DNA of 64,000 nucleotides from Eunapius fragilis (Eukaryota; Porifera; Demospongiae; Spongillida; Spongillidae): NCBI GenBank assembly GCA_963681505.1, contig OY811982.1:6587261-6651260 (forward strand), given 5' to 3'. The notes under the pieces were generated by a model that saw only the letters and a list, made by a program, of their open reading frames with translations, did not search any database and was not told the DNA's origin. Position numbers and translations under genes: made by a program. Positions 1-11,000 of the stretch are shown piece by piece (the first letter of the stretch is position 1; each line of letters opens with the position of its first letter).

Positions 1-407
1 AGGCTACATGTCCTTACCCCATGGCCAGGCTAGATGTCCTTACCCCATGGCCAGGCTACATGTCCTTACCCCATGGCCAGGCTACATGTCCTTACCCCAT
101 GGCCAGGCTACATGTCCTTACCCCATGGCCAGGCTACATGTCCTTACCCCATGGCCAGGCTACATGTCCTTACCCCATGGCCAGGCTACATGTCCTTACC
201 CCATGGCCAGGCTACATGTCCTTACCCCATGGCCAGGCTACATGTCCTTACCCCATGGCCAGGCTACATGTCCTTACCCCATGGCCAGGCTACATGTCCT
301 TACCCCATGGCCAGACTACATGGCCTTACCCCATGGCCTGGCTAGATGTCCTTACCCCATGGCCAGACTACATGTCCTTACCCCATGGCCAGGCTACATG
401 TCCTTAC
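1..407. repeat. 26-bp minisatellite built on a 5' splice site
   Basis: About 15 near-identical 26-bp units fill the start of the window and probably continue to its left. Read on the minus strand, each unit contains CATGGG followed by GTAAGGACATG. This is exactly the junction at the end of the adjoining spectrin exon (408-467), so each unit carries a copy of the last exon bases plus a consensus splice donor. A few units near 310-370 carry substitutions. Open frames running through it (8-529, 21-455) are by-products of a repeat whose length is not a multiple of three. Confidence 0.95.
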
Positions 408-2008
408 CCCATGGCCAGGCTCAGGGCTTGCTCCTTGGCATCCTTGAGCTTTTGAAGAGCGTCCCACCTGGAGGGGAGAGGGATAGGATGGAACGTGTAC
501 AGTGTAGGTACCAAAGTATGCGCACATAATTGCACCACCAAGTATCACACCAGTACATATACATGTACATACATGTACGAATACCTACATGAACCCATGT
601 ATACACTATGTGTATACACTATGTGTACAGAGTACATGTACCTGTACACACTTATGAACCCATGTGCATGAAGCATCATCATTAAACATACTTTTCATTC
701 AGCTGGGACTGCCTGGCCTTGATCTTCCTTCCCTCTGCATGCCCGCCTTTCACCATCTTGTCTGCCTCCTCGTTGATCTGCTTCACCTGACCACTGTGGG
801 CTGCCAGATCCGTCACAAAGTTCTAACGGGAACAATGCAATGATGTCATCGATATGGGGGCATGTAAATATCATTGCTTGAACATCGGAATACATGTACA
901 TGTAGCTTTCAACAGATAAACACTACTACCACAATGGTCCAAACACAACTACAATGTGATAGGGAATACAAACTAAGTCAAGGTTCAAAGTACACTTTTT
1001 TGAAATGTCAAAGGTCACATAAAATATAATTATTCAGCAAGTCATATAATTTTTAAAATGAGACATCATAAGGTATACAAGTGGATAGCAATTTCACCTA
1101 TACCTTAGGGGAGAACATGATATGAGAGTGCTATGACAATATGAGAGGGTGATGTATTCAGGGTGGTAAAAGTTGGCATGGAAAGACCCAACTGCGCACA
1201 TATGGAATGCGTGCAATGTACAATAGTAATCTACAGTAATCTACAGTAAAGGTTAACAAAACATAAATGCATGAACAAACATGCCATGTAGAGTTGTAGA
1301 AGGCTTTCTATTTCACACTTATACATAGGCACATACACACACAAATAAACACACACACACATCACACACACATGCACACACATATGCACACACGCACGCA
1401 CACACATGCACACACACATGCACACACACACACACACACACACACAGTCAGGTACATTCCTTACATCAAACTTTTTCTGCATGGCCTCCACTTTCTCCTT
1501 GTGTGTGCCCTTCTCCTCAGCCTTCATGATGGCCTCCTACAATATTTGTGTATATGCTTCAACCACACCTAAAATGCTCATCTCCTCAAATGCTAATCTC
1601 ACTGACACCTCAAAGCCTAATCACCACTAAATGCCTATATCATACATGTACATGTACACATGCAAAAAAGCACACTAACATACCCACACATACAACTATG
1701 CACCCATACACATCACCAGCACACATGTGCACATACACACCTTCTCCTTGATCCAGCTTTCCACATCGTTGCATTCGCGGACCAATGCAAACAATCTTAT
1801 AGCATCATTAAGATTCCGCCTTCTTGCCTATAACAGATACATGTACATGTGTAGAGGCACACAACACATACATGTACACACACACACACACACACACACA
1901 CACACACACACACACACACTGCATGTACCTCCGTAGCTTGAAGCAGCCTATCGTAGGCTACATTTATGGCCTGCTGCCTGCTAGCCACACTCTGACTGTC
2001 AAATTTTA
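408..2008 (-). CDS. spectrin exons 21-25: repeats following the SH3 domain
   Basis: Exons 21-25 read as spectrin-repeat helices: [19 protein letters not shown], then [18 protein letters not shown] with [11 protein letters not shown], then [19 protein letters not shown], then a helix running into [20 protein letters not shown] across the exon 24/25 junction. The LNEKWDAL signature closes a canonical repeat. Exon 25 ends in phase 2 at a GTAAGG donor that is then copied by the minisatellite at 1-407. Confidence 0.88.
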
Positions 2009-8000: not shown

Positions 8001-11000
8001 CTACCCTTCACCCACCTCATCTGCTCCTCAATAAGGACTACCCCTCACCCACCTCATCAGCTTCTCCATAAGGACTACCCCTCACCCACCTCATCAGCTT
8101 CTCCATAAGGACTACCCTTCACCCACCTCATCAGCTTCTCCATAAGGACTACTTCTCACCCACCTCATCAGCTTCTCCATAAGGACTACCCCTCACCCAC
8201 CTCATCAGCTTCTCCATAAGGACTACCCCTCACCCACCTCATCAGCTTCTCCATAAGGACTACCCCTCACCCACCTCATCAGCTTCTCCATAAGGACTAC
8301 CCCTCACCCACCTCATCAGCTCCTCCTAAGGACTACCCCTCACCCATCTCATCAGCTCCTCCTAAGGACTACCCTTCACCCACCTCATCAGCTCCTTCCT
8401 AAGTGCTACTTCTCTCTCATGCTCAGCTGCCTCCAACCTCACCCATGCCTGCAATAAAATGTGTGTGTGTGTGTGTGTGTATGTGTGTGTGTGTGTGTGT
8501 GTGTGTGTGTGTGTGTGTGTGTGTGTGTGTGTGTGTGTGTGTGTGTGTGTTGGAGAAATGACATGTGGGCTTGCATAATTGAAGCAAGCAGGCATTATGA
8601 GTGACCAGTACAACAACCTTCTCTAAACCACTGGTAATCCATCACAAGCACATGTTCTGTACATGCAAATGATTATTAGTACTTACGAATTCTGTGGACA
8701 ATTACAATACACACATACTTCACTACACAGTGGTCGCAGACTCGCCCAATATTACGTACCTTGTTAATATCGGACACCAGTTTTCCATCCGGTGGGTACC
8801 AGGTCTTCTGCCTAGCGGCCCTCAGCTTGGTCTGTACGTTGAACAGGTGGATCTCCAGGTTACCACGTTCAGTGTACCTTACATAATGAGAGATGAATAA
8901 TGACCACCAAGCCATGTACAGAGTGTAAATATAAGAATACAAATGTACAGTAACTTCCTGTACATGTGATGTGCTGTATACAAGTACACATGATAACAAG
9001 GAGACTTGTGTATATCAAAATCATTTGCACAGTGAAGCATGTACAGGTCTGTACAGTACATATCTAATAGTGACCATATGCAAAACGTTAATAGCTTGTA
9101 ACCAGGGTAACCAGGAAGACAAGTTGTATGCTTACTCCATACATGTGTACTGCACATCAGTCATTGCCATGGGTTAGTATTACTCACTTGGGAGGCTTCT
9201 CCACAGTGCGATAGGTTTTGAAGTCGGCCATAAGCTTCTGCATGCCGGCAAGGGAGTTGGAGAACTCACGGTCACTGAGGACCACCACTGTCCTCTCTAT
9301 CCAATCAAGCAGGTTTGAGCACAGTCTGTCGTACTCTTTCTTCATGTTCTCAATGTCCACCATGATGCCTACTATCTGGTACCGCAAGGGCACAATGGAA
9401 ACAATGAAGTACCATAATGTGCAGTAGGTGTGCAGTGCATGTAAGGTCATGTGACATCATGTGATCACATGGGGTGGGCTCTAGTTGCAGTGCATGTGAG
9501 GTCATGTGACATCATGTGATCAACATGGGATGCTCTAGTTGCAGTGCATGCGAGGTCATGTGACATCATGTGAGCAACATGGGGTGCTCTAGTTGCAGTG
9601 CATGCAAGGTCATGTGACATCACGTGATCAGCATGGGGCTCTAGTTCAGGTCACCTTATTGAGGCGCCTCCCACCAGTCTCCTCAGCCTTCATCTTTGAG
9701 AAGTAGTGGTAGTAGGAGACCAGATAGGTCATGATTGACTTGTCATCAGGGTGAGGTACGTTCACATCTGGAAGGGGGTGGGGGTGTGGGTAGGGGGGGG
9801 GAGGGGAGCAAGGGGCAAGAGGATGGGAGAATTGGTCAGGGCTTTCCAACGTTGATAACTCTAGTCCCCAGGCTCATATCTAGCCTCCACTTGACACCCA
9901 GTTTGTGCACTCGCCATCCTTCACTCAGTGGTAACCAGGTGGAGAAGGGAGTCCTAACCTAGGACAGGTTTCACACACTAACCTTCTGCATCTAGAAGCT
10001 TTGATATGCCAAGGCACTTCTCAGCCACATCAAAGGCATTGTTTAAATTGACCAGCGGTGCTCCTGAACGCAGCGAGCTGAAGTCAATGAGGTCTGGCCT
10101 AAGAGATTGTGTGTGTGTGTGTGTGTGTGTGTGTGTGTGTGTGTGTGTGTGTGTGTGTGTGTGTGTGTGTGTGTGTGTGTGTGTGTGTGTGTGTGTGTGT
10201 GTGTGAATGTGAATATAATTTAAATGAAGGAAATCCACAAAGCCGACATGCCACTCCCACCCTATTCATTAACACCACTCTGCATGCAACAGTCTTCTCT
10301 AGGGGACTAGGTGTGGCGCCGTTTTTAGTGTCGGGATGGCAGGACGGATAGCAGGTGCAGAATGGCCCTTCTGAGACCAAACCTCAAAGCCACAATTTCA
10401 ACCACACCTAGTTAAATGTTACATCAACATCAACTACTCTAACCTTATGAACCCTCTGAGTACTGTTACACACTGCAAAGGCAATTCAATTCAATTTTCT
10501 CGTTGTTACCTGTGCTTGTGTATAAGGGCATTGAAGGCCAAGCCGTCTCTCCAACTGGAGTGGAAGTCAGTTACACGAACTCCTGGGTACCTACATGTAA
10601 TATATATTTGCACATGTAGTCATATGAATTTGGAAAATCCCCGCCAAGGTTAAATTTAATAACAAAATAGCGAATACCCTTCCAGTTGAACTAACCCTGC
10701 CGTCTTCCTCTGACACCAAAGCAAAAGAGCCTCTTTTGCAGATCTCATTTCCATGGATTCATCCTCTAATTGGATGTCTTGGATCTCAAACCTCAAGATG
10801 ATGGTCCATATGAGCCCCAGGATCAGACGTGGATTTCCATCCACGATGTCCTCTGCTCCGATATTCTCGAGGTTCACCTGATGGATGGCAAAATAATATT
10901 TCAATTACATGCATTATTGATGTCTTGAATTCACAGACAATGCAGCAAAATAACGGCTTAGAATTTCGAATAATAATGCAGCACGTTGGGACCAAGCGAT

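Follow-up and report, generated by a model that had tools for sequence, protein, structure and literature searches.

Why do several introns of a single sponge gene open with tandem arrays built from their own 5′ splice sites, and do donors give rise to such arrays or only tolerate them? The question is raised by a stretch of 64,000 nucleotides of Eunapius fragilis (contig OY811982.1), hereafter the window, in which the gene concerned is a stretch of beta-heavy-like spectrin. Arrays were called by TRF, and gene models were our own, made from spectrin Pfam matches, codon bias and splice-site scores, with textbook values as splice weights. Six spectrin introns of the window carry arrays at their 5′ ends: the units of five include the donor (26, 28, 39, 13 and 37 bp), while the sixth, of 54 bp, starts 8 nt inside the intron, and the six unit sequences are mutually unrelated. 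An earlier note on this DNA, which had counted at least four introns of the gene that open in this way, was thus right and slightly undercounted them, having missed the 28-bp array. Donor positions in the following list are those of the gene models.

1..421, minus strand, 26-bp array, 16.2 copies in the window, spanning donor 406-407; the final 14 exon nt are part of the unit
408..467, minus strand, spectrin exon, its 3′ end copied into the 26-bp array (gene model)
2124..2232, minus strand, 28-bp array, 3.9 copies, spanning donor 2227-2228
2229..2316, minus strand, exon 5′ of the 28-bp array (gene model)
2657..2805, minus strand, 39-bp array, TRF 2657-2762 (2.7 copies), extended to donor 2804-2805 by degenerate first copies
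2806..2937, minus strand, exon 5′ of the 39-bp array (gene model), which we take to resemble the start of an SH3 domain
3904..4143, minus strand, 13-bp array, 18.8 copies, beginning precisely at donor 4142-4143
4144..4239, minus strand, spectrin exon 5′ of the 13-bp array (gene model)
7473..8403, minus strand, 37-bp array, 25.2-25.5 copies with 24 donor-bearing units, spanning donor 8382-8383; about 20 exon nt in the unit
8384..8448, minus strand, spectrin exon ending LRKELM(R), source of the 37-bp unit, aligned with solved beta-spectrin
9431..9646, minus strand, 54-bp array, 4.0 copies, beginning 8 nt into the intron of donor 9653-9654; the unit is without a donor
9655..9767, minus strand, spectrin exon 5′ of the 54-bp array (gene model)

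Apart from the 54-bp array and the 39-bp array, whose TRF start lies about 40 nt past the donor, the donors are located at or within the array start. The 26-bp array is truncated at the window start by a run of 5,000 N.

Exon letters are found in most of the donor-bearing units: the 28- and 39-bp units have about 4-5 nt, the 26-bp unit has 14 and the 37-bp unit about 20, and the 13-bp array starts at the GT without any. Alpha-spectrin also has a donor array, with a 44-bp unit containing 15 exon nt at donor C 14786. Coding letters of the own exon therefore lie inside the unit in three arrays (26, 37 and 44 bp), and in these the unit clearly spans the boundary; in the 54-bp array and in a 16-bp array at A 26375, the donor is not cleanly repeated. 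In the 37-bp array, 18 of the 20 exon nt, counted by eye, are identical to the array consensus. The exon end of this case, LRKELMR/QEKLEQ, aligns with 8iah_M, a spectrin beta chain (E = 5.5e-125), and EDLGK/D of the 44-bp case lies in sequence that matches 8iah_8, an alpha-spectrin (E = 5e-101), so that in both cases the exon version of the unit is conserved coding sequence. Because the exon letters of the 37-bp unit encode a stretch aligned with solved beta-spectrin, the exon is the older of the two and the source of the array.

Arrays of this kind have already been named in amphioxus. Two reports describe “mirages” as minisatellite-like arrays that duplicate the exon-intron boundary in tandem and occur in genes unrelated to each other, namely Adh3, the globins BflGb6 and BflGb9, troponin C and PGBD5. 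Their units range from 10-72 bp in Adh3 to about 150-160 bp in the globins, and many of the units carry splice signals; the arrays are length-unstable, reportedly without disturbing splicing (PMC3087553; PMC3902484). The sponge arrays likewise duplicate the boundary with unrelated units, and they are mirage-type arrays, the sponge being a new non-chordate member. They differ in host and in the presence of several arrays in one gene. The statement in the earlier note that single cases are known thus undersells the prior art. In the part of the open-licence PMC literature covered, no report of mirages in sponges was found, from which their absence from print does not follow.

Do these arrays originate in place, or are they copies of something mobile? 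DNA searches of the genome with the 37-, 26-, 28-, 54- and 39-bp arrays, in which only the best candidates were scored, gave high identity solely within this gene and its contig C12 segmental copies, and matches of 68-78% or none at other places. The 37-bp array is found at four further places in the window:

34046..34420, plus strand, 37-bp array of 10 units, truncated duplicate
39346..39937, plus strand, 37-bp array of 16 units, truncated duplicate
41045..41377, minus strand, 37-bp array of 8 units, truncated duplicate
60308..60900, minus strand, 37-bp array of 17 units, in a paralogous stretch of the spectrin gene

These five places, together with the dispersed donor-motif minisatellite families present in the genome, might suggest one spreading or introner-like element family. 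Such a family is very improbable: among the best candidates, high-identity 37-bp copies occur only on C12 among the spectrin duplicates, the other four arrays searched behave likewise, similar copies at unrelated loci were not found for any of the five, and the units hold letters of their own exons. The proposal that the units are unrelated and reflect a recurrent process is supported by the same observations, which speak for independent and local origins. Unrelated units recur in more than one gene, the beta-heavy-like and alpha-spectrin genes, which encode proteins that are themselves related; non-spectrin loci gave weak candidate exons only, such as that at L024 with a Pfam score below the cut-off.

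Gene A and its inverted paralogue B have identical array junctions and different copy numbers, a variation that mirages also show and that is seen here between paralogous gene copies: 25.2 and 18.5 for the 37-bp array, 18.8 and 32.2 for 13 bp, 3.9 and 6.9 for 28 bp, and 4.0 and 3.0 for 54 bp. This recurrence in separate gene copies, for which the 26-bp array is not comparable, and an assembly QV of 60.4 leave a negligible chance that the arrays are assembly errors, even though the run of N adjoins the 26-bp array. Two further candidates were rejected as donor arrays: the repeat at 7111-7224 starts at least 30 nt from its donor, and the unit of a 35-bp array 5 nt behind the A donor 33714 contains no donor.

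Whether donors are preferred starting points was approached by counting array starts at -20 to +5 from the donor in gap-free introns shorter than 3 kb of the two spectrin genes, with uniform placement as the expectation. With a minimum of 3.5 copies, 9/25 arrays start at a donor against 2.8 expected (P = 0.0008), about threefold denser for these longer arrays than uniform placement predicts; at least 2.5 copies gives 9/35 against 4.2 (P = 0.015) and at least 1.9 copies 10/56 against 6.0 (P = 0.066). With the stretch of the earlier note removed, the corresponding values are 6/21 against 2.0 (P = 0.007), 6/29 against 3.3 (P = 0.086) and 7/47 against 4.8 (P = 0.19). The excess is compatible with nucleation at donors, and also with arrays that stop at the exon edge.

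Local recurrence of sequence windows was compared in 88 introns. Donor windows recur in 7/88, including one doubtful and one uninspected case, and acceptor windows in 0/88 (Fisher P = 0.014), while mid-intron windows recur in 19-34% and exon-internal ones in 3/1,255. How far donors and acceptors differ varies with the match threshold, the counts being 7 versus 1 of 88 (P = 0.064) at 12 of 16 matches and 4 versus 0 (P = 0.12) at 14 of 16. Across the 88 introns there is no donor peak, only a smooth rise from exon to intron; outside the stretch of the earlier note, donor windows recur in 3/68 introns. Array letters make up 10,492 of the 45,063 intron letters of the two spectrin genes, about 23%.

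These data bear on the possibility that donors are mutational hot spots, where R-loops or slippage, favored by a G-rich sense strand past the donor, start tandem duplications. Besides the excess of starts, it is favored by the sense-strand G-richness of arrays starting at -20 to +45 from donors (median skew 0.48, 13/16 positive), which differ in skew from acceptor-side arrays (P = 0.015), and by the finding that a tandem triple begins at 15.8% of AGGTRAG copies genome-wide, compared with 6.0%, 10.4% and 5.9% of the copies of three control motifs with matched letters, one of which, GATGARG, may itself occur at exon ends. However, G skew is no greater in donor-side arrays than in the others (P = 0.60, 10 arrays), and the R-loop argument from skew was rejected as not discriminating. 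The motif counts are of matches, not arrays; one control count repeats the built-in control of another and is not independent of it, and of the 14 places represented in the first 100 AGGTAAG matches listed, 8 belong to a single dispersed 29-bp family. The genome-wide donor-motif excess exists, is inflated by dispersed minisatellites, and is weak evidence. With neither a donor peak nor frequent recurrence at donors outside the original stretch, the hot-spot reading is unlikely, and the claim that donor sequences nucleate tandem duplication, for which the starts alone are enriched, is left unsupported. Rather, the donor arrays look like part of a repeat-rich intron landscape and not like a special property of donors.

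What do the repeated donors mean for splicing? The human 6-16 gene has a minisatellite offering repeated donors; it is a single case in a different gene, and its likeness to the sponge arrays lies in the repetition of donors. The predicted rows of decoys are clear in the 37-bp array, where 26 decoys score within 0.7 of the real donor, and in the 26-bp array (15), slight in the 39-bp array (2), and missing from the 13- and 28-bp arrays (0 each). Exons joined at donor 1 yield the spectrin-aligned protein, and judging from this protein donor 1 is probably the donor in use. Past donor 1, the frame meets a stop within 1-60 nt in 8/8 arrays read through, and in these the stop precedes every decoy near the real donor's score, except one in an 18-bp, 2.2-copy case. 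It is unlikely that the arrays are tolerated on the ground that any unit can splice, since inner donors would nearly always add a stop codon. A splicing role that retains the extra donors, as more U1 sites or alternative donors, might be read from the GT present in most 37-bp units; yet homogenisation can explain its retention, the use of inner donors would introduce stops, no decoy of the 13- and 28-bp arrays comes near the real donor's score, and any constraint is inconsistent, the unit beside donor 1 having lost its GT in A and kept it in B and in the 60308 copy. Such a role is therefore quite improbable. Selection against the unit beside donor 1, considered because A and the 44-bp array of alpha-spectrin have lost GT there, was rejected on the same ground, as B and the 60308 copy keep it.

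The best explanation as a whole, to which we assign a probability of roughly 0.7, is duplication of the junction in place, with arrays born throughout introns, survivors ending at the exon edge and a tolerant donor side. A short segment across, or starting at, the exon-intron junction would have been tandemly duplicated, and the array would then have grown and shrunk, presumably by slippage or unequal exchange. Arrays may be born throughout these introns, those entering exons being removed by selection, so that the survivors stop at the exon edge. On the donor side, junction-spanning arrays would survive because the first donor, still beside an intact exon, is used, products of inner donors carrying stops. 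On the acceptor side, splicing would shift to an upstream copy of the acceptor, and such arrays would be lost.

A reading in which junction-spanning duplication is general and continuing in sponges and amphioxus alike, is directed to donors by G-rich structure of the sense strand, and steadily adds intron length and new splice sites across animals, is doubtful. In the amphioxus globins, both 5′ and 3′ boundaries are reported to be duplicated, in contrast to the sponge acceptors (0/88, or 1/88 at the looser threshold). Introns are also reported to arise when AG/GT proto-splice sites are duplicated in tandem (Rogers, 1989, as cited in PMC3087553; Drosophila, PMC2891723; potato RdRp, PMC4974935). 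Such intron gain shares with the sponge arrays a tandem duplication across splice-signal sequence; the sponge arrays make no new intron and lengthen an existing one at its 5′ end. The amphioxus phenomenon is extended to a sponge, in which conserved protein sequence settles the order, exon first and array second, so that a chromosome-level genome can be used to test whether splice junctions are hot spots of mutation or no more than tolerant edges.

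The introns concerned belong to a spectrin gene (gene A), which lies on the minus strand and extends beyond the left end of the window (C12:6587261–6651260). Spectrin-repeat matches (PF00435) are found on this strand at window 0.7–5.9 kb and further left, and the protein from exons A4–A10 matches the spectrin beta chain 8iah_M, which we take to be mammalian, with E = 5.5e-125. An N-terminal CH-like sequence and an SH3-like stretch suggest, as read from the sequence, that gene A may be a beta-heavy spectrin gene. Gene models were made for this analysis, with codon usage trained on Pfam matches and textbook values as splice weights; they comprise 67 introns for A and 42 for gene C. 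In A, the final exons past roughly A 43.7 kb are doubtful, and one there nearly duplicates an earlier exon. Other spectrin genes and copies used here are as follows.

Contig C12, about 6.338–6.368 Mb: gene B, long inverted paralogue of A, aligned over A 0.9–33.6 kb, a part of the gene
Window 54.4–63.4 kb: partial spectrin copy
Contig C13, 1.338–1.353 Mb: gene C, alpha-spectrin-like gene

In C12 6.34–6.74 Mb, spectrin gene copies are clustered in both orientations, some long, others partial or truncated; window 33.7–41.4 and 54.4–63.4 kb belong to this cluster. Genes A and B each hold a run of exactly 5,000 N at corresponding parts: that of A (12001–17000) borders the window on its left, and that of B lies at 15152–20151. 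Window 28192–32758, in which 114-bp direct repeats, 96.5% identical, surround a 1,434-aa gag-pol-like frame, is, as read from its sequence, a putative LTR-type retrotransposon, and more pieces, labeled gypsy-like from sequence reading, lie at window 35305–39038.

The earlier note had counted at least four introns opening with donor-bearing arrays, and this holds: in the stretch that it described (window 1..9767, minus strand), such arrays open five of the 18 introns with donors at window 407–9654, with units of 26, 28, 39, 13, and 37 bp, and a 54-bp array beginning 8 nt inside its intron is a sixth case. Gene C has a 44-bp array with 15 exon letters in its unit (coding EDLGK) and an 18-bp array of 2.2 copies. 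Elsewhere in A, a 13-bp array of 2.5 copies at donor A 39963 is a candidate, and the copies of a 16-bp array 2 nt behind donor A 26375 do not cleanly repeat the donor. A 17-bp array at the called donor C 12353 is doubtful, as the protein suggests an exon end about 39 nt earlier. At the other intron end, two pyrimidine-rich arrays of gene C (13055–13218 and 14183–14651) end 24 and 22 nt ahead of acceptors, the former with acceptor-like units (CCTTGTAG, CCATATAG).

About 20 letters of exon end, coding LRKELM(R), are part of the 37-bp unit, and 14 exon letters are part of the 26-bp unit. Because the protein of the joined exons at the 37-bp array aligns with ALRSELIRQEKLEQ in 8iah_M, the exon is ancestral and the array derived from it. 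The 37-, 26-, 28-, 39-, and 54-bp arrays were searched against the whole assembly (218,937,333 bases in 24 contigs) by a tool that scores the best candidates alone and skips very common words, so that rarer copies could escape. High-identity matches of all five lay on C12, in spectrin copies only, which bears out for these arrays the earlier view that they are not one spreading family. Off C12, matches of 68–78% were found for the 37-bp (C3 and C9), 26-bp (C22 and C7), 28-bp (C19 and C2), and 39-bp (C19) arrays; the 54-bp array had none outside the C12 spectrin copies. The 37-bp array is present at four further places of the window through segmental duplication, and its ten copies carry from 8 to 24 donor-bearing units. 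Between A and B, copy number is unequal for the 37-, 13-, 28-, and 54-bp arrays and nearly equal for the 39-bp (2.8/2.6) and 16-bp (3.8/3.8) arrays; the comparison excludes the 26-bp array, whose exon was not found in B, where a 5,000-N run lies at this point. The primary assembly, odEunFrag1.1, is described with a QV of 60.4 and a total of 218.91 Mb, to which a mitochondrial genome of 28.5 kb is added (PMC12616128).

Whether donors are favored was asked in the two spectrin genes A and C, and an enrichment at donors was found in array starts and not in local recurrence. In gap-free introns under 3 kb (64/67 in A, 42/42 in C; the 26-bp array, directly followed by A's N-run, was excluded), 9/25 arrays with ≥3.5 copies begin within −20..+5 of a donor vs. 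2.8 expected (P = 0.0008), 9/35 vs. 4.2 at ≥2.5 copies (P = 0.015), and 10/56 vs. 6.0 at ≥1.9 copies (P = 0.066), while array ends at acceptors number 2/25, 2/35, and 4/56. Since the described stretch had been picked for its arrays, the remaining introns are a fairer test: starts at donors are 6/21 vs. 2.0 (P = 0.007), 6/29 vs. 3.3 (P = 0.086), and 7/47 vs. 4.8 (P = 0.19), with 2, 2, and 3 ends at acceptors; counted among them are the doubtful 17-bp case and donor-abutting arrays without a donor inside (one of 35 bp in gene A, and those of 24 and 25 bp in gene C), all as starts at donors.

Local recurrence was scored for 16-nt windows (−6..+10 at donors; at least 13/16 matching within 70 nt) in the 88 of 109 called introns that reach 140 nt. 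Donor windows recur in 7/88 introns (4/20 in the described stretch, 1/42 in the rest of A, the candidate at A 39963, and 2/26 in C, one being the doubtful 17-bp case) vs. 0/88 for acceptor windows (P = 0.014; 0.064 at a looser and 0.12 at a stricter threshold); the 13-bp array of the described stretch, whose unit has no exon letters, is missed. Mid-intron windows recur in 221/666, 495/2,631, and 464/1,348 cases and exon-internal windows in 3/1,255. The recurrence profile climbs smoothly across the junction into the intron and has no peak at the donor. Local recurrence thus speaks against a hot spot specific to donors. Arrays that halt at a selected exon edge would yield the observed excess of starts, and donors may tolerate junction arrays more than acceptors.

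Inner donors, that is, donor copies in later units, would give truncated products, because a stop codon follows the real donor within 1–60 nt in 8/8 arrays read through (a set outside which the 54-bp array stands); as an exception, one decoy of the 18-bp array adds six stop-free codons. Arrays whose start lies at −20..+45 from a donor have a sense strand rich in G (median skew 0.48, n = 16) and differ from acceptor-side arrays (−0.66, n = 11; P = 0.015) but not from the remaining arrays (n = 10; P = 0.60); intron ends without arrays have a like strand bias in A and a weaker one in C. Arrays of this kind are already known as the “mirages” of amphioxus, tandem duplications of the exon–intron boundary, and the sponge case is one from a distant phylum.

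Genome-wide, AGGTRAG forms 13,448 tandem triples among 85,124 single copies (15.8%) vs. 3,812 among 63,244 (6.0%) for the reversed motif, and two more letter-matched motifs give 10,003/96,016 (10.4%) and 3,000/50,496 (5.9%); for AGGTAAG the counts are 3,967 vs. 531. The first 100 AGGTAAG matches listed, all on C1, fall in 14 places, 8 of them in one dispersed 29-bp family. From C1, a small sample chosen by position among the matches listed was fetched, with 12 donor-motif and 6 control-motif arrays. Five of the 12 belong to the 29-bp family, one (L028) adjoins a gap, and three (L021, L031, L032) lack a candidate exon with a positive coding score where the array begins. In the other three, a weak candidate exon ends there (L022, score 6.6; L027, 7.5; L024, 1.9), that of L024 having an EGF-like reading (Pfam E 0.02–0.35, short of the cut-offs) and 13 exon letters in the unit. 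Of the six controls, L038 yielded no array, and in none does a candidate exon with a clearly positive coding score lie where the array begins; L034, whose unit has GGTGAGTGG, has a weak candidate there, with a score of 2.1 and a negative coding score.

The 29-bp family (unit of about 29 bp, AGGTAAGCCATTGTGTGTCAGCTACCCAG) was seen, among the matches listed, at C1:731688, 3314289, 4234535, 5107610, 6620600, 6785076, 8073325, and 9812722. One flank is common to four of the five fetched loci (L023, L025, L026, L029, L030), and the family looks like a mobile element whose internal tandem array has one motif resembling a donor and one resembling an acceptor. A second dispersed family, with a unit of about 27 bp (GAGTGGACACTACTGTAGACAGCTGTG), lies at C1:5387417, 5390896, 7236815, and 11403095 among the matches listed. 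At L036, an array of this family begins about 22 nt from an opposite-strand Death-domain-like reading frame (Pfam E = 4.8e-8), on the acceptor side of that exon.
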